Origin: a virus
Direction: 5' to 3' (one strand)
Length of the DNA stretch: 33,112 nucleotides
Virus record (IMG/VR): IMGVR_UViG_3300034106_000911
Span: 1 to 33,112 of that record
The translations under genes and the position numbers were made by a program. Position 1 is the stretch's first letter. Each line of letters starts with the position of its first letter. Below are positions 4,306 to 33,112 of the stretch, one piece after another. The notes under the pieces were generated by a model, which was given only the letters and a program-made list of their open reading frames with translations, was not told where the DNA came from and made no database searches.

Positions 4306-4755
4306 TTACTTGCCCTTACCGAATGAGACCGTCGTCTTTTTATCGCTAAAAAGAGGCATACGTTCATCATTCAGCCTCATAAAGTTGTTGTCTACCGACT
4401 GCAACTGAGACTGAGCTTGCTTCGCGTAATATTCATCACGCTGCTTCATCAGTTCAGCCGGAGCCTTGCAGAGCAACAACCCACCGATCTCGATATTTCC
4501 ACTAAATTTGGAATTCGGATCGGATTGCATCATCAATTTAGGCTGGTCTTCGGCCCTTACAGGCTCCCAACCTTCCCGGAATTTTGCAGAGGTATTAGAA
4601 GGATCTGCTTGTCCCATAATACTCGTGCGTATCCATCGGAACACCCAACCGTCTTGCGGCTCCGGTTCAGGGAGCGTCTGGGGCGGGGTCCATTGTTGTT
4701 TGCGCTTGGTGCCTTCTCGGTTTTCGGCTTCTCGCGCCAATCTGTTATCAGCCAT
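4306..4755 (-). CDS. Conserved-looking late protein of unknown function (149 aa)
   Basis: A 149-aa hydrophilic protein. Notable segments are a proline-rich stretch (WTPPQTLPEPEPQDGWVFRW), WEPVRAEDQP and GNIEIGGLLLCKAPAELMKQ. The last, a short hydrophobic strand then a helix, is a pattern I associate with unnamed proteins between scaffold and capsid genes. The C-terminal third is a polar helix ending in KKTTVSFGKGK. Its ATG lies inside the last codons of the scaffold gene (8-base overlap) behind GGAG, so the two are coupled. A head-assembly or minor virion role is inferred from place only. Confidence 0.65.
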   Translation of the reverse strand: MADNRLAREAENREGTKRKQQWTPPQTLPEPEPQDGWVFRWIRTSIMGQADPSNTSAKFREGWEPVRAEDQPKLMMQSDPNSKFSGNIEIGGLLLCKAPAELMKQRDEYYAKQAQSQLQSVDNNFMRLNDERMPLFSDKKTTVSFGKGK

Positions 4756-12779: not shown

Positions 12780-12834
12780 CCGGGGCGGCAACGCCCCGGC
12801 CTTTCGGGGGAGGCGAAAGCCTCCCCCATTTTTT
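12780..12834 (+). terminator. Tandem-hairpin terminator
   Basis: A first hairpin (CCGGGGCG/CGCCCCGG with a GCAA loop, 12780-12799) is followed by a second one (GGGGGAGGC/GCCTCCCCC with a GAAA loop, 12806-12827), then a T-rich run to 12834. It ends the 216-aa gene's transcript. The second stem resembles the GAAA-loop hairpins at 11358 and 11675. Confidence 0.88.
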
Positions 12835-12836
12835 GT

Positions 12837-12972: not shown

Positions 12973-12999
12973 ATCATTTGCGAAAATTACAGAGTACGC
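12973..12999 (+). repeat. 27-nt direct repeat, copy 1
   Basis: ATCATTTGCGAAAATTAC plus the following nine bases recur exactly 60 bases later with one mismatch. It lies at the left edge of the origin-like region. Confidence 0.75.
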
Positions 13000-13032: not shown

Positions 13033-13059
13033 ATCATTTGCGAAAATTACAAAGTACGC
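13033..13059 (+). repeat. 27-nt direct repeat, copy 2
   Basis: Second copy, 26 of 27 bases identical to 12973-12999. It is followed within ten bases by the first of the TGTTCCG 9-mers. Confidence 0.75.
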
Positions 13060-13482
13060 GCTGTTTTGTTCCGCTCGCTACGCTTGTTCCGCAGCCTGTT
13101 CCGGGCGACGCTCGTTTTGCGGAACAACGCAAGTGCTTGATTCTAATCAGGAAAACGCGATTTTTGCGCGATTTGTTCCGCTGTTCCGCAAAAAATAAGT
13201 AAAGAACTGCCGAGACGCAGTTTTTTCGCTCGCGAGGGTCGCGCAGCCTGTTCGGCAAGTTAGGTGTGTCTGGCAGTTTATACTCTCAAAACTGCGGAAC
13301 AGCGGAACAACCCCCCCTTTTTTCTTACTTACTACTACATTTTATTTATATATAAGATAAGAACGACTACGCAAAATCAAGCACTTACGCTCATCCGAGC
13401 GACGCTCATTTCACAAGTTACGCCCAAAAGCCCGAGCATAATATAAGCGGAACAAACTCGTTTTTCCGGAACAGCGGAACAG
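13060..13482. other. Candidate replication origin with 9-mer iterons
   Basis: No credible gene occupies 12835-13619. Eleven 9-mers of the type (C/T)TGTTCC-G-(C/G) are present. Four are forward as isolated or paired copies at 13066, 13084, 13096 and 13173, with a fifth at 13181. Six are reversed at 13119, 13294, 13302, 13447, 13466 and 13474. Three tandem pairs share one base. The pair at 13173-13189 is the exact reverse complement of that at 13294-13310. A second inverted repeat (AAGTGCTTGATT at 13131-13142, its complement at 13375-13386) surrounds it. An AT-rich tract lies at about 13311-13365. Iterons beside an AT-rich unwinding zone are typical of origins; an array of repressor sites is the main alternative. 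Confidence 0.55.
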
Positions 13483-13511
13483 ACTGATAAATAAAATAGT
13501 TATATATAAGC

Positions 13512-13539
13512 TTGAATTAGTATAGTTTTCAGGTAAAAT
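13512..13539 (+). promoter_or_regulatory. Promoter for the GP88-like operon
   Basis: TTGAAT (13512-13517) and TAAAAT (13534-13539) are 16 bases apart, directly right of the iteron region and about 80 bases before the GP88-like start. The leader contains the 20-bp palindrome. Confidence 0.6.
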
Positions 13540-13619: not shown

Positions 13620-14432
13620 ATGGCAAGCAAATTCAAACTCCTCAACATCGACGCCAACGCCAAAACGGTGAAGGGTCAAGCCCGTGGGTACCTGACGGGC
13701 ATCCTGTACCTCTCTCCGAGCGACGCTAGCGGCACTCAACTCTGCCCCCTATCCCACGTAGCCCGTTGCGCTGCCCCATGCTTGAACCTCGCAGGGCGTG
13801 GCGGCATGGCGAAGGGTAACGCTACCTTCACCTCACCCGGCGGCCACGAACTCTCTGATAACACCGTGCAGCGCGCTCGACTGCGTCGTACAGAATTGTT
13901 CTTGGAGGACTACGACGCCTTCTTTGCGCTGCTAGTGAAAGAAATACGCATGGCCGAGCGCATGGCACAGGAACAGGGTCTCACCCTTGCCCTCCGGCTC
14001 AACGGCACGAGCGACATTCGGTGGGAGGACATACCTCTGACCGTTGACGGGCGTGGCTACTACAACATTTTCCGTGCCTTCCCACACATTCAGTTCTACG
14101 ACTACACCAAGATTCCGAACCGACGCCGTGCGCTCATCATTCCTAACTATCACCTCACATACAGTTACTCGGGTGTATCAGATTTTGCGCCGGTAGTTAT
14201 CCAAGCCCTACGTACCTACGGGGAGCGGGTCAACATGGCAGTCGTGTTCCGTGGCGACGTACCCAAGACATTCCTAGGCAGACAGGTCGTCAACGGCGAC
14301 GAATCAGATTTGCGGTTCCTAGACCCCACAGGCGTCGTGATCGCACTGAAGGCAAAGGGGAAAGCCCAGAAGGACACCTCTGGGTTCGTTGTCGATCACA
14401 TCAATAGCCCTGCCCTGTCGGCAGCGGCGTAA
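13620..14432 (+). CDS. GP88-family phage protein (270 aa)
   Basis: This protein has the features of the family Pfam calls Gene product 88, first noted in mycobacteriophages; its function is unknown. It begins MASKFKLLNIDANAKTVKGQ. Then come YLTGILYLSPSDASGTQLCP and HVARCAAPCLNLAGRGG, with three close cysteines that could bind metal. Further motifs are RRTELFLEDYDAFFALLVKE, LALRLNGTSDIRWEDIPL, HIQFYDYTKIPNRRR and HLTYSYSG. The order of Cys region, RLNGTSDI, FYDYTK and LTYS is what I used to recognise it. The frame opens at 13548, but the ATG at 13620 has GGAG eight bases before it and lies after the palindrome. It is the first gene of the operon right of the origin-like region. Confidence 0.75.
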   Translation: MASKFKLLNIDANAKTVKGQARGYLTGILYLSPSDASGTQLCPLSHVARCAAPCLNLAGRGGMAKGNATFTSPGGHELSDNTVQRARLRRTELFLEDYDAFFALLVKEIRMAERMAQEQGLTLALRLNGTSDIRWEDIPLTVDGRGYYNIFRAFPHIQFYDYTKIPNRRRALIIPNYHLTYSYSGVSDFAPVVIQALRTYGERVNMAVVFRGDVPKTFLGRQVVNGDESDLRFLDPTGVVIALKAKGKAQKDTSGFVVDHINSPALSAAA

Positions 14433-16501: not shown

Positions 16502-17623
16502 ATGACTACTACAAACGTTGACGTTCATTCCCTCCCCGTGTCCCTGTCCGAGGCGTTGCAGATGATCCTGCTGTACGGCAGTGAGATCACCCTGCTGATG
16601 GATGGTGAGACGGGTATCGGCAAGTCGTCCTTGCTACCGGCGATTGCCAAGAAGCACGGCGATCAGTGGCGTAAGCCCGGTCAGTACTTTGCGACTGACA
16701 AGTACAACTATCTCTACATCGACTGCACCACTGAAGAGATCGGTGATCGCAAGATGAAGATTCCCGTGCATGCCACGAAGAAGTTGGAGGACTACCTCGC
16801 CGCCGAGTGGCGGCTCGACGAGGGCAAGCCGCTTGTCCTCATGCTTGACGAGTTCAAGAAGTGTCCCAAGGCATTGCAGGTGCTGTGGTCACGGCTCATG
16901 CAGGAGCGCACCATCGGCAACGTGCCGCTGCCCGAGGGGTCAATCGTGTTTGGTACGTCCAACCTTGCGTCAGACGGACTGGGCGACATCATCAAGGCAC
17001 ACGAGGCTAACCGTGTGATGCGTGTCCATGTACGCAAGTCGAACTCAAAAGAGATGTACAAGTACGCTGCCGAGCAGGGCGTCGAGCAAGTGTTGCTTGC
17101 GTGGATCGCCTCGACCAAGCAAGCGTTCGCGTCGTACCTCGACGGCAACCAAGACAGCAACCCTTACATCTTCCATCCTAATCGTTCTGGTCAATGCGTT
17201 ACGCCGCGCTCCACCATGCGTTGCAATTACGTGCTACAGAAGCGACACCTTGTGCCGGAGCACATCACGCACACGGCACTGGCCGGACTGATTGGTCGTG
17301 CAGGTGCGGACAGCCTCATGGCCTGTGTCAACCTCGACGACAAGGTGATGAAGACCGAGCAGGTGATCAAGGCTCCGACTGCTGTACCTGTTCCAGATGA
17401 TGCGCTTGCTTTGATCCTGATGATGATTCACGGCGCGGCCGACGTTGAGACACAGGACGAGGTCGATGCGTTCATGCAGTTCGTGGATCGTGTGCCGTCG
17501 AGCGAGGTGCAGTCGATCTTCTTCCACATGCTTGTGACTTCCAACAATCCACAGAAGGTCATCTTGGTTCGCAACAACAAGCGATTGACCCAGTGGCGTA
17601 CTGACAACTACGAGTTGATCTAA
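16502..17623 (+). CDS. MoxR-type AAA+ ATPase (373 aa)
   Basis: A single AAA+ domain of the MoxR/AAA_5 type. It shows Walker A MDGETGIGKSS (GETGIGKS at 35-42), Walker B PLVLMLDEFKKCP (about 111-122), and a sensor-1 region, IVFGTSNLASDGLGD (148-162), with HEANRVMRVHVRKS (about 167-180) holding the likely arginine finger. A helical C-terminal lid domain follows (to 373). MoxR ATPases form rings that remodel proteins together with VWA-domain partners, as in RavA-ViaA and CbbQ-CbbO. Here the next gene encodes such a VWA protein, which supports the pairing. GGAGTAATAGTT precedes the ATG. Phage targets are unknown. Confidence 0.85.
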   Translation: MTTTNVDVHSLPVSLSEALQMILLYGSEITLLMDGETGIGKSSLLPAIAKKHGDQWRKPGQYFATDKYNYLYIDCTTEEIGDRKMKIPVHATKKLEDYLAAEWRLDEGKPLVLMLDEFKKCPKALQVLWSRLMQERTIGNVPLPEGSIVFGTSNLASDGLGDIIKAHEANRVMRVHVRKSNSKEMYKYAAEQGVEQVLLAWIASTKQAFASYLDGNQDSNPYIFHPNRSGQCVTPRSTMRCNYVLQKRHLVPEHITHTALAGLIGRAGADSLMACVNLDDKVMKTEQVIKAPTAVPVPDDALALILMMIHGAADVETQDEVDAFMQFVDRVPSSEVQSIFFHMLVTSNNPQKVILVRNNKRLTQWRTDNYELI

Positions 17624-17636
17624 TAGGAGTATTCAC

Positions 17637-18866
17637 ATGGATACAGCAATGAAGATCAAGAAGGCCAAGAGCCGCTTGATGCGACACGTTGAGACCCGGC
17701 ACATGGCGGGTATCTTTGTGAGTGGCAAGGTCGAGATATGCGACAACCTTCCTACCGCATGCACTGATGGGTGGAACGAGAAGTATGGTCGCAAGTTCAC
17801 TGACGGGCTGACCATTGCAGAGGCCACGGGTGTGGTACTGCACGAGGGACTGCACAAGTATGCGAAGCACATCCCTCGCTTCCGTAAGTTGATGAAGACT
17901 GACGGACGCATGATCAATGCAGCGATGGACTACGCGATCAACGACATCATTCATAACTTGAAAGACAAGACGTTGGCCGTGCTGCCCGAGCCGCATCTGT
18001 ACAACCCCATGTTCAGGAATTGGTCTGTCCTTGAGATATACGAGTTCTTGAAGACAGGTCGAGACAAGGACGGCAACAAGCGTGGCGATCCCAAAGAGAA
18101 CCGTGATGGTGTCAACGTTGGCGGTAGTCAGTACGACACCGAGTCGATGGATGAGCACAGCGCGGAGAGCATCACGGGCGAGGAACTCAGCGAAGCAGAG
18201 GCAGAGCAGATCGCCAAGAAGATCGACGATGCGATCAAGCAGGGCGCGATCATTGCCGGTGCGATGGGGCTTGACCTGCCCCGTGCGTTGACTGAATCGT
18301 TAGACCCGGTGGTCGATTGGACTGCGGAGTTGTATGACTTTGCTAGCAACAACGTGCGCGGTGCTGACGAGTACAGTTTCCAACGATACAACCGACGCCG
18401 GATCGCTGACGATATCTACATGCCGACGATGTACAAGGACACCATCAGCGAAGTGTTGATCATGCCGGATGCGTCCGGATCGATTGACCAACGTGCGATG
18501 AATGCGTGGGCAGCGGAGATCGCCAACGTGTGCGAGGTGATGCAGCCTGATCTGGTGCGTGTGTTGTGGTGGGACACGCAGGTGCATGCCGAGCAGGTGT
18601 TTGAGCCGGGTCAGTTCGATCAGATTCGTGACCTGCTCACGCCCCGTGGCGGTGGTGGTACGGAGGTCTCGTGCCTCAGTCGCTACATCAATGATAAGAA
18701 TATTACGGCAGACTGTGCCATCGTGTTGACGGACGGTTACGTCGAGCCTCAAGTGAAGTGGGACATCGACATCCCGACGCTGTGGATGGTGACGGAGAGT
18801 CGTATGTTTCGTCCCCCGGTGGGACGCATGGTGAAGATCGATAACCTTGGAAAGGAGAATCAGTGA
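17637..18866 (+). CDS. Zincin-like and VWA-domain protein, MoxR partner (409 aa)
   Basis: A two-part protein. The N-terminal half resembles the DUF2201 metallopeptidase-like domain: EATGVVLHEGLHKYAKHIPR contains HEGLH (69-73), an HExxH zinc site, followed by MINAAMDYAINDII (about 92-105), which may hold the third ligand. A charged linker (about 140-200) leads into a VWA domain with DASGS (278-282), GGGGTE (338-343) and LTDG (364-367), the three parts of a MIDAS metal site. VWA proteins with MoxR ATPases act as chaperone pairs. The HExxH suggests protease or structural zinc; activity is not shown. AGGAG lies before the ATG, 13 bases after the ATPase stop. Its stop overlaps the next start (TGATG). 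Confidence 0.82.
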   Translation: MDTAMKIKKAKSRLMRHVETRHMAGIFVSGKVEICDNLPTACTDGWNEKYGRKFTDGLTIAEATGVVLHEGLHKYAKHIPRFRKLMKTDGRMINAAMDYAINDIIHNLKDKTLAVLPEPHLYNPMFRNWSVLEIYEFLKTGRDKDGNKRGDPKENRDGVNVGGSQYDTESMDEHSAESITGEELSEAEAEQIAKKIDDAIKQGAIIAGAMGLDLPRALTESLDPVVDWTAELYDFASNNVRGADEYSFQRYNRRRIADDIYMPTMYKDTISEVLIMPDASGSIDQRAMNAWAAEIANVCEVMQPDLVRVLWWDTQVHAEQVFEPGQFDQIRDLLTPRGGGGTEVSCLSRYINDKNITADCAIVLTDGYVEPQVKWDIDIPTLWMVTESRMFRPPVGRMVKIDNLGKENQ

Positions 18867-23845: not shown

Positions 23846-24290
23846 TGCTGCGAAGATTCGCGCTCTCTTGGCAGAGGGGCTGTCAGTAAAAGAGATCGCC
23901 GCCAAGTTGAAACTCAAAGAGAACTACGTTCATCAAGTAAAGTTCTATTGGAAGAACAATATCAAGAAGGGTGAGCGAGTTAAGAAAACCAAGTTGTCGA
24001 AGATCGCAAAGACCCGCGAAGTATTGCAGCCGGTAAAGCCGTTGATCTTCAACGGGCAGAAGCCGATAAAAGTTCCCGAGGCCGATATGGTCAATCACCC
24101 ACCGCACTACAAGGTTGGCGGCGTGGAAACGATTGAGTTCATAGAGGCTAAGAATCTTAACTATCACTTGGGCAACGCTGTGAAGTACATCAGCCGCGCT
24201 TTCTACAAGGGCAATCCGTTGCAGGACTTGAAGAAGGCTAGGTTCTACATTGATCGCGAGATCGCCCGTCGAGAATCGAAGGCTGCTTGA
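23829..24290 (+). CDS. HTH plus DUF3310 protein (153 aa)
   Basis: An N-terminal HTH-like segment (about 5-35: AAKIRALLAEGLSVKEIAAK, then LKLKENYVHQVKFYW) is joined through a basic linker to a C-terminal DUF3310 domain: VNHPPHYKVGGVETIEFIEA, then YHLGNAVKYISRAFYKGNP and DLKKARFYIDREI. DUF3310 is found in T7 gp1.7, a nucleotide kinase for dTMP and dGMP, so the C-terminal half may act in nucleotide supply. The HTH could control expression or dock on DNA. The gene lies next to the DNA polymerase, whose start is two bases after its stop. Confidence 0.78.
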   Translation: MKKQSNAAKIRALLAEGLSVKEIAAKLKLKENYVHQVKFYWKNNIKKGERVKKTKLSKIAKTREVLQPVKPLIFNGQKPIKVPEADMVNHPPHYKVGGVETIEFIEAKNLNYHLGNAVKYISRAFYKGNPLQDLKKARFYIDREIARRESKAA

Positions 24291-24292
24291 TC

Positions 24293-26161
24293 ATGAGTTT
24301 CGTAACGCTAGATTTTGAAACGTACTATGCGAAGGACTTCAGTCTGTCGAAGATGACGACTGAGGAATACATTCGCGACCCGCGCTTTCAAATCATCGGC
24401 GTAGGTGTCAAAGAGAACGATGGCGAACCCGTTTGGTTTTCTGGATCTCACGATGAGATTAAAGAATTCTTAAACAGGTTTGACTGGAGCAGCACCGCTG
24501 TCCTATGTCACAACGCCATGTTCGACGGAGCGATACTGGAGTGGGTTCTGGATATTCATCCGAACTTCTACTACGACACGCTGTGCATGGCTCGTGCTTT
24601 ACACGGGGTCGATGCAGGTGGATCGCTTGCTGCGCTTGTTCAGCGTTACGAGATTGGTGAGAAGGGAACCGAAGTACACAACAACATCGGGAAACGGAGA
24701 GAGGACTTCTCTCCGGCAGAACTGGAGTTGTATGGGCACTATTGCATGAACGACGTTGAACTAACGTGCAATTTGTTTGCTCGTATGGCTCCAGTTTTTC
24801 CCGAGGTCGAGTTCAATCTGGTGGACATGACCCTCAAGATGTACACCCGTCCGACGCTGATGGTGGACGATGCGCTGTTGGTCACGAGGCTAGATGAAAT
24901 TAAAGCCGAGAAGACTGAACTGCTAAATGGTCTGAGAGGTTTGCTTGACTGTGGGCTAGAGGAAGAAGTTCGCAAGAAACTCTGTAGCAACAAACAGTTC
25001 GCGCAGATACTGGAGGACTTCAACATCCCCGTGCCCATGAAGATCAGTCCGACTACGGGCAACCCGACCTTTGCTCTTGCCAAGAATGATGTGGGGTTCA
25101 TGGCTCTGCAAGAACATCCCGACCCGATCATTCAACAACTCTGCGCGGTTCGTCTGGGTACGAAGTCCACCATCGAAGAGTCACGCATCGAACGCTTCAT
25201 CGGAATCGGTGCGCGAAACAATGGCATGCTGCCTATCCCGTTGAAGTATTACGGGGCACACACTGGGCGGTGGTCAGGGCAGGACAGCGTCAACTTCCAG
25301 AACTTGCCGAGCCGCGATGCCAAGAAGAAGGCGTTGAAGAATTCAGTGCTGGCTCCCCGTGGACATGTCGTTATTAACTGTGACAGTTCACAGATCGAAG
25401 CGCGTGTGCTGGCGTGGTTAGCCGAGCAGGAGGACATGGTCGAGGCGTTCCGTAACAAGCGGGATATCTATTCCGAGTTCGCCACGCAGGTCTACAACAG
25501 AACTATTACGAAGAAAGATCCGGTCGAGCGGTTCGTGGGCAAGACCTGCATCCTTGGACTGGGCTACGGCACAGGTGCTGCCAAGTTGCAGCACACTCTG
25601 GGCACGGCGCATCCGGTGAGCGTTCGCCTTGAAGAACATGAGTGCAAGCGCATCGTGCATCTGTACCGACAGGCCAACAGCATGATCCCGAGGTTTTGGA
25701 ATGACTGTGACCGAGCCTTGTCATGGCTGATGAGCACGGGTGCGAACGTTGGTAAGTCTTACTACTTGGACAACAAGCAAGTCGTGGAGATAACGCCGGA
25801 AGGCATAAGGCTTCCGAACCGACTGTACATCCGCTATCCGAACCTCCGCACTAGCGGCCTTGAAAACGGATGCGTTTACACATCACGCCGTGGCGTAATA
25901 AAGATCTGGGGCGGTGCAGTTACTGAGAATATCGTGCAAGCCCTCGCCCGAATCATCGTGGGCGAACAGATGCTAAAGATAAACGAACGTTATCGAACTG
26001 TACTGACCGTGCATGACGCAGGTGTCTGGGTTGTCCCAGAATCCGAAGTCGATGACGCCCTTGCATTTATAGTGAAAACTATGTCTACTCCCCCTGACTG
26101 GTGTGCCGATCTGCCCGTCGCTTGCGAGGCTAAATACGGACAATCATATGGGGATTGCTAG
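24293..26161 (+). CDS. Family A DNA polymerase with 3'-5' exonuclease (622 aa)
   Basis: A replicative polymerase. The exonuclease has VTLDFET (Asp7, Glu9), LCHNAMFDGAIL (Asn74 to Asp78) and HYCMNDVELT (Tyr150, Asp154), so proofreading should be active. The polymerase part has motif A INCDSSQIEARVLAWLA (Asp364), motif B RFVGKTCILGLGYGTG (Arg413, Lys417, Leu421, Tyr425) and motif C LTVHDAGVWVV (His574, Asp575). Leu421 aligns with E. coli Phe762. The usual Glu after HD in motif C is Ala576. It has no 5'-nuclease domain, so it is T7-like in length. A TTG at 24287 could add two residues, but ATG at 24293 is preferred. Confidence 0.92.
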   Translation: MSFVTLDFETYYAKDFSLSKMTTEEYIRDPRFQIIGVGVKENDGEPVWFSGSHDEIKEFLNRFDWSSTAVLCHNAMFDGAILEWVLDIHPNFYYDTLCMARALHGVDAGGSLAALVQRYEIGEKGTEVHNNIGKRREDFSPAELELYGHYCMNDVELTCNLFARMAPVFPEVEFNLVDMTLKMYTRPTLMVDDALLVTRLDEIKAEKTELLNGLRGLLDCGLEEEVRKKLCSNKQFAQILEDFNIPVPMKISPTTGNPTFALAKNDVGFMALQEHPDPIIQQLCAVRLGTKSTIEESRIERFIGIGARNNGMLPIPLKYYGAHTGRWSGQDSVNFQNLPSRDAKKKALKNSVLAPRGHVVINCDSSQIEARVLAWLAEQEDMVEAFRNKRDIYSEFATQVYNRTITKKDPVERFVGKTCILGLGYGTGAAKLQHTLGTAHPVSVRLEEHECKRIVHLYRQANSMIPRFWNDCDRALSWLMSTGANVGKSYYLDNKQVVEITPEGIRLPNRLYIRYPNLRTSGLENGCVYTSRRGVIKIWGGAVTENIVQALARIIVGEQMLKINERYRTVLTVHDAGVWVVPESEVDDALAFIVKTMSTPPDWCADLPVACEAKYGQSYGDC

Positions 26162-30155: not shown

Positions 30156-30470
30156 ATGGCACGACCGTACAGTCAAAAGTTCCTTTTGGATTTGTATCGC
30201 AACAATTCCACCTCACTTGGGGTGAATCTTGCGAGGCTGTGCGTCAACGCTAATCTTCCTGCTACATACGTTGCCGCTGCGTTGGAGACAACGCGAACGA
30301 CCGTCTACAGTTGGTTCCGAGGCCAAGGTATACGGGAGGGAAAGCACAACCTGATCAAGACCTTTATTGAACTGGTTGAAGAAGATATGGCTAACGGTGT
30401 GTTACCGGCGAAGACTGTCCTTGACGCTAAGCGATATATCGAACAGATGATTGGTTCGCCAATCAAGTAA
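30156..30470 (+). CDS. HTH regulator-like protein (104 aa)
   Basis: A 104-aa protein, MARPYSQKFLLDLYRNNSTS, then VNLARLCVNANLPATYVAAA and LETTRTTVYSWFRGQGIREG, which reads as a helix-turn-helix with the recognition helix near TTRTTVYSWFRGQ. The C-terminal part is helical (FIELVEEDMANGVLPAKTVL, then DAKRYIEQMIG). This arrangement is common in small phage DNA-binding proteins in replication modules. It could repress or activate the switch, or act with the primase. AAGGATCG lies before the ATG. A terminator follows 12 bases after the stop. Confidence 0.72.
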   Translation: MARPYSQKFLLDLYRNNSTSLGVNLARLCVNANLPATYVAAALETTRTTVYSWFRGQGIREGKHNLIKTFIELVEEDMANGVLPAKTVLDAKRYIEQMIGSPIK

Positions 30471-30512: not shown

Positions 30513-33112
30513 ATGCTAAAACAATTCTACGAGAAAGTCCTGCCTACGGAAGGCGTGTACTGCGTCACGACGATTGACTCAGTATCTAAGCGAGTTACTA
30601 ACTCGTTTGCCCCTACGCTTGATGAGATGTTTGAACTGGTCGAGCAAGCGAAGTTAGATCGGCTCAACGTCTTTGTATCACCCAACACATTTAAAAATTC
30701 TAGCCGACGAGCAGAGAACGCGCTGGCAGGCCGTTCACTCTTTATCGATCTGGACGTAGGTGATACCGAGAAGAAGTATTCAAGCAAAGAGGAAGCGACT
30801 GCGGCGCTAGAAGATTTTCTTGCGAAGCACGAACTTCCTCCTCCTGCCATCATCGATACCGGCGGTGGCATCCATGCCTATTGGCCGCTTGATCGGAACG
30901 TACCGATTGCAGAGTGGAAGGTCTACGCCGAGAAGTTTAAGGCATTCTGCCAGACCGATGGACTGAAGATTGATGCTGCCGTCACGGCAGATGCAGCGCG
31001 AATCATGCGTTGCCCAGAAACATTCAACTACAAGTACGATGTTCCACGTGAAACATCCGTGGTCTCGCAAGAGATCTACGAGTACTCGTTTGATGTGTTT
31101 AAAGAATTCTTGGGGGTAGAAGAAGCAAGTGTCGAAGAAGTCCTAGCCTCTGCCATCAAAGGCTTTGACAAAGACATCTTTGACATAAGCAAGTTTCAAA
31201 ACTACGAGTACGAGTTCGACACGGTTGCAATGAAGAGCCTGTCGGACGAGGGCTGCAATCAGATCAAGCACATTCTGGTGAACTCACGCACTATCGACGA
31301 GCCGCTCTGGAGAGCAGGGCTGTCCGTTGCTATGCGCTGCGTTGATGCCGATCCCGCCATCTATAAGATGTCTGAGGATTACGAGGGCTACGACCGCGCC
31401 TATACCCAGAAGAAAGCCGAACAAACTTTATCAGCAAAATGGGCTTACACTTGTGAAAGATTTGAATCCCTCAACCCCGGTGGATGCGACGACTGCCCCT
31501 TCAAAGGAAAGATCCCGTCCCCTACTCACATTGGGCGACGCATCAAAGAAGCCTCAACAGATACGCCGGAATCAATTCGGGAGGACGAGGATTCCGAAGC
31601 GGTTTCTGCTTACCAAGCCTACTTAGAGATCTTCAAGCAGAATAAGTTGTATCCATTCATGCGACTGGCGGGCGGTATCTATTATCAACCTCCGCCGAAG
31701 TCCGAGAAGGGAAAGAAGATTGAGCAAGACCCAATCTTGCTAACGAAGTACGACCTGTTCCCAGTCAAGCGAATGTACAGCGAGACAGACGCATCATGCT
31801 TGGAGATGCGCGTAATTCTTCCACACGATGGCGTTCGTTCGTTCCTCGTGCCCATGAAGACCGTAGCGGCGTCGGACAAACTGCGCGAAGCCATGCTGAG
31901 TCAAGATGTGGTGTTCGACCCAGAGGTTAGTGCCTTGATTACCAAGTATGTTTTGAAATGGACGGATCACATGGTTAACATCGAAGCAGCCGAGCAGATG
32001 CGTATGCAAATGGGATGGACGGAAGACCGTAAGGGATTCGTCATCGGGCACTCCGAAGTCCGCGAGACAGGTGAGGTTCTCAAGACTGCTACGTCTCCGC
32101 TCGTCCGCTCAATAGCTAAACTTCTTAAAACTGAAGGCAACTTTGACGACTGGAAGAAGGCAGTATCGATCCTCAACGCGCCAAGCATGGAACTCCATGC
32201 CTTTGGCATGCTGACTGGGTTTGGTGCGCCGCTGATGAGCCTGACCTCCACGCCCGGAGCATCGATCTGCTTTACGGGCGGCACGGGCTGCGGCAAGACG
32301 GGTTCGCTTTATGCGGCAATTAGCATATTCGGTGCGCCGCGAGAGTTAGGTTTGATTGACGGAGGTGCAACCGAGAACGGCTTTGTTGCGCGCTATCTAA
32401 ACCTGAAGAACATCCTGCTTGGCCTAGACGAAGTGTCCAACGCCAAGGCAGAGCATCTATCGAAGATCATCCACCAGAACTCGCAGGGTAAGCCCAAAGT
32501 TCGTGTGAGAGCGTCGGTCAATGCCGAGCGCGAAGTACAGCAGAACGCATCCACCATCCTGTTCATGACCTCTAACAAGAACATCAACGACATCTTGGAG
32601 CAGATCAAGGCTAGCCCTGACGGTGAACTGGCACGTGTCGTTCAGTTCCATATTGAGAAGCCGCACCTGCTGCGCGAGAAGCCTGAGTACGGTCGGCTGA
32701 TATTTGAAACTCTGCACAAAAACCACGGGCATGCCGGTGTAGAGTTCATTAAGTACTATTACACAGTTGGCGAAGAAGTAGTCCTTGAGAAGATCAAACG
32801 TTGGGCACAGGAGTACAACAACTATCTGGGCAACGACACTGAGTACCGCTTCTACGAGAACTTGATCTCAGCGACGTTTGCCGGAGCAGAACTTGCTTGC
32901 GAGGCCGGTATCATCAAGTTCGACCTACACCGCATATTCAAGGCAGTGATTCAGGAACTAGCCAACCTCAAGAGCGACAGGAAACTGAACGTTACGGATT
33001 ACCGCGACATCCTGAACGTGTTCATCAACCGCAACATCAGCGGCTTCCTGATCATGAATGACAACAAGGTGGTGACCGAGCCACGAGGTCCGTTGATTGG
33101 CCGTAGCGAGAT
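30513..33112 (+). CDS. Primase-helicase, AEP and DUF927-like (partial, at least 866 aa)
   Basis: The frame stays open from the ATG at 30513 to the right edge. The N-terminal third resembles an archaeo-eukaryotic primase: GRSLFIDLDVGD (DxD metal site), IIDTGGGIHAYWPLD (the G-x-H-x-Y-W motif) and DAAVTADAARIMRCPETFNY (Asp and the R-x-P-x-T-x-N motif). Middle cysteines (NPGGCDDCPFKGK) may bind zinc. The C-terminal part resembles a DUF927 superfamily 3-like ATPase: ASICFTGGTGCGKTGSLYAA is Walker A, NILLGLDEVSN Walker B, and TILFMTSNKNIND a sensor-1-like strand. Such fusions prime and unwind at phage forks. No ribosome site stands close to the ATG. GGAGG is 24 bases upstream, inside the terminator stem. 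Confidence 0.85.
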   Translation, partial: MLKQFYEKVLPTEGVYCVTTIDSVSKRVTNSFAPTLDEMFELVEQAKLDRLNVFVSPNTFKNSSRRAENALAGRSLFIDLDVGDTEKKYSSKEEATAALEDFLAKHELPPPAIIDTGGGIHAYWPLDRNVPIAEWKVYAEKFKAFCQTDGLKIDAAVTADAARIMRCPETFNYKYDVPRETSVVSQEIYEYSFDVFKEFLGVEEASVEEVLASAIKGFDKDIFDISKFQNYEYEFDTVAMKSLSDEGCNQIKHILVNSRTIDEPLWRAGLSVAMRCVDADPAIYKMSEDYEGYDRAYTQKKAEQTLSAKWAYTCERFESLNPGGCDDCPFKGKIPSPTHIGRRIKEASTDTPESIREDEDSEAVSAYQAYLEIFKQNKLYPFMRLAGGIYYQPPPKSEKGKKIEQDPILLTKYDLFPVKRMYSETDASCLEMRVILPHDGVRSFLVPMKTVAASDKLREAMLSQDVVFDPEVSALITKYVLKWTDHMVNIEAAEQMRMQMGWTEDRKGFVIGHSEVRETGEVLKTATSPLVRSIAKLLKTEGNFDDWKKAVSILNAPSMELHAFGMLTGFGAPLMSLTSTPGASICFTGGTGCGKTGSLYAAISIFGAPRELGLIDGGATENGFVARYLNLKNILLGLDEVSNAKAEHLSKIIHQNSQGKPKVRVRASVNAEREVQQNASTILFMTSNKNINDILEQIKASPDGELARVVQFHIEKPHLLREKPEYGRLIFETLHKNHGHAGVEFIKYYYTVGEEVVLEKIKRWAQEYNNYLGNDTEYRFYENLISATFAGAELACEAGIIKFDLHRIFKAVIQELANLKSDRKLNVTDYRDILNVFINRNISGFLIMNDNKVVTEPRGPLIGRSE

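Follow-up and report, generated by a model that had tools for sequence, protein, structure and literature searches.

The intergenic region at 13067–13481 of the viral DNA analysed here (33,112 nucleotides, the window) carries a dense two-stranded cluster of short repeats, or iterons, at which the phage very likely starts replication; their reader is most likely the primase-helicase that the phage itself encodes. An initial annotation of the DNA had proposed a candidate origin at this place, and that proposal is now supported by the conserved position and architecture of the cluster, its AT-rich tract and IHF-type sites, its unique occurrence and the tracking of its motif with the primase-helicase; what computation shows is the anatomy, its conservation, the way in which the motif tracks the winged helix, and the fold predicted for the binder. 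The phages that would start replication here form an abundant, uncultivated, aquatic family.

Architecture of the iteron cluster

The predicted origin holds 11 exact copies of the 7-mer TGTTCCG, five on the plus strand (starting at 13067, 13085, 13097, 13174 and 13182) and six on the minus strand (13120, 13295, 13303, 13448, 13467 and 13475), which bears out the eleven repeats in both orientations over about 420 bases noted initially; the repeat unit, described there as a 9-mer, is this 7-mer, usually followed by C. The cluster is far above chance. TGTTCCG occurs 18 times in the whole window compared with 5.1 expected (at most 12 in 100 shuffles), the remaining seven copies being scattered outside the cluster, and no 7-mer of any kind exceeded five copies per 415 bp in 60 Markov-simulated windows, as against 11 here. 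A second TGTTCCG cluster was found neither in the window nor in 24.6 kb scanned past its end, a scan that covers the sister contig except for about 2.7 kb. ORFs of 60–74 aa in the region recur in near-identical contigs only, in agreement with the earlier view that it contains no credible gene.

As had been described, the iterons include three tandem pairs, repeating every 8 bp (13174/13182, 13295/13303 and 13467/13475); the first and second of these pairs together make up an exact inverted repeat of 18 bp (13173–13190 and 13293–13310). The left core pair, TGTTCCGcTGTTCCG (13174–13188, plus strand), faces right and the right core pair (13295–13309, minus strand) faces left, the starts of their innermost copies being 113 bp apart; the core spacer between them (13189–13294) contains the inverted arms AACTGCC (13205–13211) and GGCAGTT (13273–13279). 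The outer tandem pair lies at 13467–13481 on the minus strand. A surrounding 12-bp inverted repeat, reported earlier as a further feature (13092–13103 and 13475–13486), is not a separate element, because its match of only 92% includes iterons. A pRN1-like stem-loop origin was rejected: the good folding of the core (z −6.4) stems from the inverted arrangement of the iteron pairs, and the spacer alone shows no consistent folding excess in relatives.

The AT-rich tract noted inside the cluster is confirmed, and a second one is found at its right edge. Tract 1 (13318–13360), a candidate unwinding element, lies directly outside the right core pair and is a joint AT maximum of the window, tract 2 spans 13485–13529, and no 40-mers in the 33-kb window are richer in AT than the two that start at 13318–13321 and 13485–13490. 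The window has four IHF-consensus sites, and two of them, AATCAAGCACTTA (13375–13387, plus strand) and AATCAAGCACTTG (13130–13142, minus strand), flank the core in inverted orientation relative to each other. No DnaA box (TTWTNCACA) occurs in the cluster, the only matches in the window being near 9.2 kb and 5.4 kb. The GC-skew check proposed initially places the minimum where expected, near 13.5–14.5 kb, but it is confounded by gene orientation.

On its left, the origin region follows an intrinsic terminator (12806–12835, plus strand) that closes the neighbouring gene; Rfam returned sub-threshold matches only, among them BjrC68 at the terminator hairpin (27 bits versus 39). The right neighbour of the cluster is a rightward gene of the GP88 family (13620–14432). 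A 27-nt direct repeat, ATCATTTGCGAAAATTACARAGTACGC, occurs directly left of the iterons at 12973–12999 and 13033–13059, 60 bp from start to start. A perfect 14-bp palindrome, GTGGGAATTCCCAC, occurs three times (12949, 13589 and 14442), within the intergenic stretch of the origin and immediately ahead of rightward genes, and is probably an operator or promoter element. Farther right, at 16502–18866(+), an AAA ATPase gene is followed by a DUF2201 (metallopeptidase-like/VWA-like) gene, which together resemble a MoxR–VWA pair.

The predicted initiator and conservation of the cluster

The initial statement that the window encodes no known initiator is not supported. The ORF at 30513–33110(+) encodes an AEP primase-helicase that is predicted to be an initiator of the Cch/SaPIbov1 Rep type (DUF927, MCM-like helicase) fused to a primase, and its putative origin-binding winged helix had been missed because the contig ends inside the gene. 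The ORF, open at the window end, covers the first 866 of 942 aa; a contig identical over 15,389 bp up to the last base of the window completes it and contains the C-terminal winged helix, which lies mostly (from residue 867) beyond the window. The protein combines the AEP primase motifs FIDLD and GGGIHAYW, a DUF927 helicase with Walker A and B motifs (Pfam, E 4.5e-17) and the winged helix. An AF2 model of the C-terminal 170 residues (pLDDT 84) resembles SCCmec Cch (Z 9.7) and SaPIbov1 Rep (Z 9.4), the only other strong match being the oriT-binding relaxosome accessory protein of pCW3 (Z 8.7) and the bulk of matches scoring Z 5 and below. With the full-length model the same two helicases are best (5dgk and 8tch; E 1.7e-19 and 1.2e-15), followed by PrimPol AEP domains and MCM helicases. 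A PDB sequence search with the C-terminal profile gave no meaningful match, and fold comparison was needed. The presumed extender is a family A DNA polymerase (24287–26161, plus strand). There is no cluster in the flanks of the primase-helicase gene; the origin cluster ends at 13481 and the gene starts at 30513.

For the window's terminase, metagenomic relatives number in the hundreds. With a cluster defined as six or more copies of a both-strand 7-mer, one is present at the syntenic place in 23 of the 26 relatives with at least 3 kb of sequence upstream of TerL and in 0 of 30 loci without that region. It lies 1.2–3.8 kb, mostly about 2 kb, upstream of TerL. The automatic scan gave no cluster in the other three, one of which (G078) displays by eye a mixed TGTGCC/TGTTCC array. 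The motif varies across phages (TGTTCCG, TGTTCCA, TGTTCTA, TGTGCCG, TGTGTCA, TGTGCGG, TGTACGC, AATTCCA and AAGTTCT), and the plan is constant, with inward-facing tandem pairs, an adjoining AT- or TAA-rich tract and usually ATCAANNACTTR. There are 27 copies of this last element in 15.9 kb of clusters versus six in 235 kb of flanks, the IHF-type site being mostly missing in the TGTTCTA clade, and the AT maximum of the locus falls inside the cluster in 30 of 31 loci. One relative (L320, 882–1854) carries, near its terminase genes, one-strand repeats of a kind that differs from the iterons (GCTCGCC, 16 copies; CTCGCCC, 14 copies).

Core spacers in the relatives measure 103, 113–114, 118 and 122–126 bp, apart from a few incomplete cases, and these values are suggestive of roughly whole helical turns (R 0.685; p 1e-4 against a uniform distribution and 0.01 on distinct values, with shared ancestry and a broad period to be considered).

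Viral contigs were furthermore scanned for TGTTCCGCTGTTCCG, and dense clusters appeared in unrelated phages as well. In eight distinct cases (L017, L020, L038, L040, L044/L071, L062, L070 and L075; just three exact copies in L020) the cluster sits at the 3' end of a primase-helicase gene, as it does in SaPIs, and the adjoining enzymes belong to the VapE, DUF927, AAA_25 and Toprim classes; the clusters of L018, L045, L057 and L067 were not linked to a primase gene. In L018, a 13-copy TGTTCCG cluster (4368–4730) adjoins a TerS-like gene and not a primase. A host factor reading the TGTTCCG shared by unrelated phages was considered and rejected as an ascertainment effect, since the contigs had been retrieved with that 15-mer; the shared motif is thus due to the search, the gene adjacency is not. 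Among isolates, only the cultivated Pseudomonas phage Rollin (L387) has a relative of the primase over nearly its full length (26%, 90% coverage); it carries an unannotated, origin-like cluster of AAAAGGTAG/ACTACCTTTT at position 1–570 of its record, with a strict IHF-type site and an AAT tract. In satellite P4, taken as a positive control, the same scan ranks the annotated type 1 repeats, TGTTCACC, first.

Motif variation and the iteron-reading protein

In the 24 genomes having both parts (motifs of G056, G061 and G078 assigned by eye), motif distance correlates with the distance between primase C-termini (rho 0.60), and less strongly with that of TerS (0.42), TerL (0.41), the rest of the primase (0.36) and a small HTH protein (0.21). 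The correlation with the primase C-terminus persists given TerL or TerS (0.49 and 0.50; p 0.001), and with near relatives collapsed to 17 genomes it is 0.37 given TerL (p 0.007). Given the primase C-terminus, no significant motif correlation is left for TerL, TerS or the HTH protein. Motif changes thus appear to track the C-terminal winged helix of the primase-helicase better than the terminase or the neighbouring HTH protein, as judged from moderate partial correlations among phages of shared ancestry. In one clade, the recognition helix reads EMKAQN or EMAAQN in TGTTCCA phages and EMRAKN, DMREKK, DMRERK or EMREKN in TGTTCTA phages, and in AATTCCA phages the wing contains KKHLETGW or RKHLETGW.

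That the cluster is an origin whose iterons are read by another protein, which recruits the primase-helicase, is improbable. One candidate, an HTH-like protein of 104 aa (30156–30470, plus strand), is encoded directly upstream of the primase in 24 of 24 genomes; however, its recognition helix is nearly constant across motif classes, which makes it a poor candidate for the iteron reader, and the motif correlates negatively with it in partial tests (−0.19 given TerL, −0.16 given the primase C-terminus). A host initiator in this role is disfavoured by the absence of a DnaA box from the cluster. We speculate that the HTH protein might take the place of IHF as reader of the constant ATCAANNACTTR element. 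A packaging site (pac/cos), to which the small terminase subunit would bind, is still less probable. The location some 2 kb upstream of the terminase genes and the TerS-like neighbour of the L018 cluster would suit such a site, but TerS (0.17, p 0.11) and TerL (0.05, p 0.27) add nothing to the motif correlation once the primase C-terminus is given, and elsewhere in phages clusters sit at primase-helicase genes. Moreover, DSL-LC04 and HTVC027P, which have a related TerL (50–53% identical) and no match to the primase, yielded nothing comparable on both strands when 50 kb of each was scanned (at most six and five copies). The AT maximum and IHF sites fit an origin, although IHF occurs at some packaging sites too.

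Least probable, in our view, is an array of operators through which an early repressor or activator would act; the intergenic position upstream of the rightward gene 13620–14432, near a switch in gene orientation, would suit it. Eleven copies within 415 bp in both orientations, combined with an AT maximum and IHF sites, speak against it, as does the lack of an excess of sigma-70 promoter matches (4 versus 2.7 expected). Furthermore, the flanking gene differs between relatives, the window being the only one of 24 genomes in which a GP88 homologue was found next to the cluster, while the cluster stays.

Relation to known origins and proposed mechanism

The cluster is likely an origin read by the primase-helicase itself and would work in the manner of SaPI Rep/ori and P4 alpha/ori. 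We do not file it as a member of either system, because 17 kb separate it from the initiator gene, the fused primase is of the AEP type, and the iteron differs. SaPI Rep recognises an iteron origin through its C-terminal domain, and Cch contains DUF927 and is related to SaPIbov1 Rep (PMC7581432). These self-loading initiators share with the present protein the DUF927 MCM-like helicase core and, at the C-terminus, a winged helix whose predicted fold is the same, and likewise have origins of short iterons; in contrast, the helicase is here fused to an AEP primase, the origin is not directly downstream of the initiator gene, and the carriers are tailed phages rather than chromosomal islands.

P4 alpha also unites primase, helicase and winged-helix origin binder in one protein, and its 8-bp iterons, TGTTCACC, occur in both orientations with AT-rich DNA nearby, but they have only the core TGTTC in common with the TGTTCCG(C) found here. 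Its primase is of the Toprim type (PMC4234260), whereas AEP motifs and AEP structural matches are found here, and P4 needs two cis regions, ori and crr (annotated in X51522), compared with a single cluster here over the window plus the 24.6 kb scanned past its end. The pRN1-type and BIP-1-type AEP–SF3–winged-helix proteins resemble the present initiator in domain composition; for these a stem-loop origin without iterons has been proposed (PMC4234260), unlike the iteron-based origin here, even though its core can fold through the inverted iteron pairs. The AT-rich unwinding element and IHF-type sites beside iterons are also features of DnaA-assisted iteron plasmids. There, the iterons are typically about 17–22 bp and are read by a separate Rep protein, whereas the iterons here are 7–8 bp, the cluster lacks a DnaA box, and the predicted initiator is itself the helicase-primase.

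From this architecture we infer how binding, hexamer loading, opening and bidirectional firing might proceed at this region, which would be the only origin that the phage has. The primase-helicase would bind the TGTTCCG iterons through its C-terminal winged helix, and each of the two inward-facing tandem pairs, about 113 bp apart, would assist in loading one MCM-like hexamer, so that the two hexamers stand head to head. The DNA would be bent at the IHF-type sites and the adjacent AT-rich tract would open, after which the fused AEP domain would prime and the family A polymerase would extend in both directions. More tentatively, and with rather less than even confidence, we propose that a widespread phage lineage uses a fused AEP primase/MCM-like self-loading initiator that acts on one distant origin of two inward-facing iteron pairs, at a roughly helically phased spacing (mostly 103, 113–114 and 122–126 bp), to load a head-to-head double hexamer, with a fast-evolving, readable code linking winged helix and iteron.

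The findings provide a predicted origin, its putative cognate initiator and a natural series of matched variants of motif and winged helix for a large group of uncultivated phages. The recognition code and the loading geometry of self-loading MCM-like helicases would thereby become directly testable with short oligonucleotides and one small domain, and the combination of a both-strand 7-mer cluster, an AT maximum and an IHF-type site offers a recipe for finding origins in phages with such primases.
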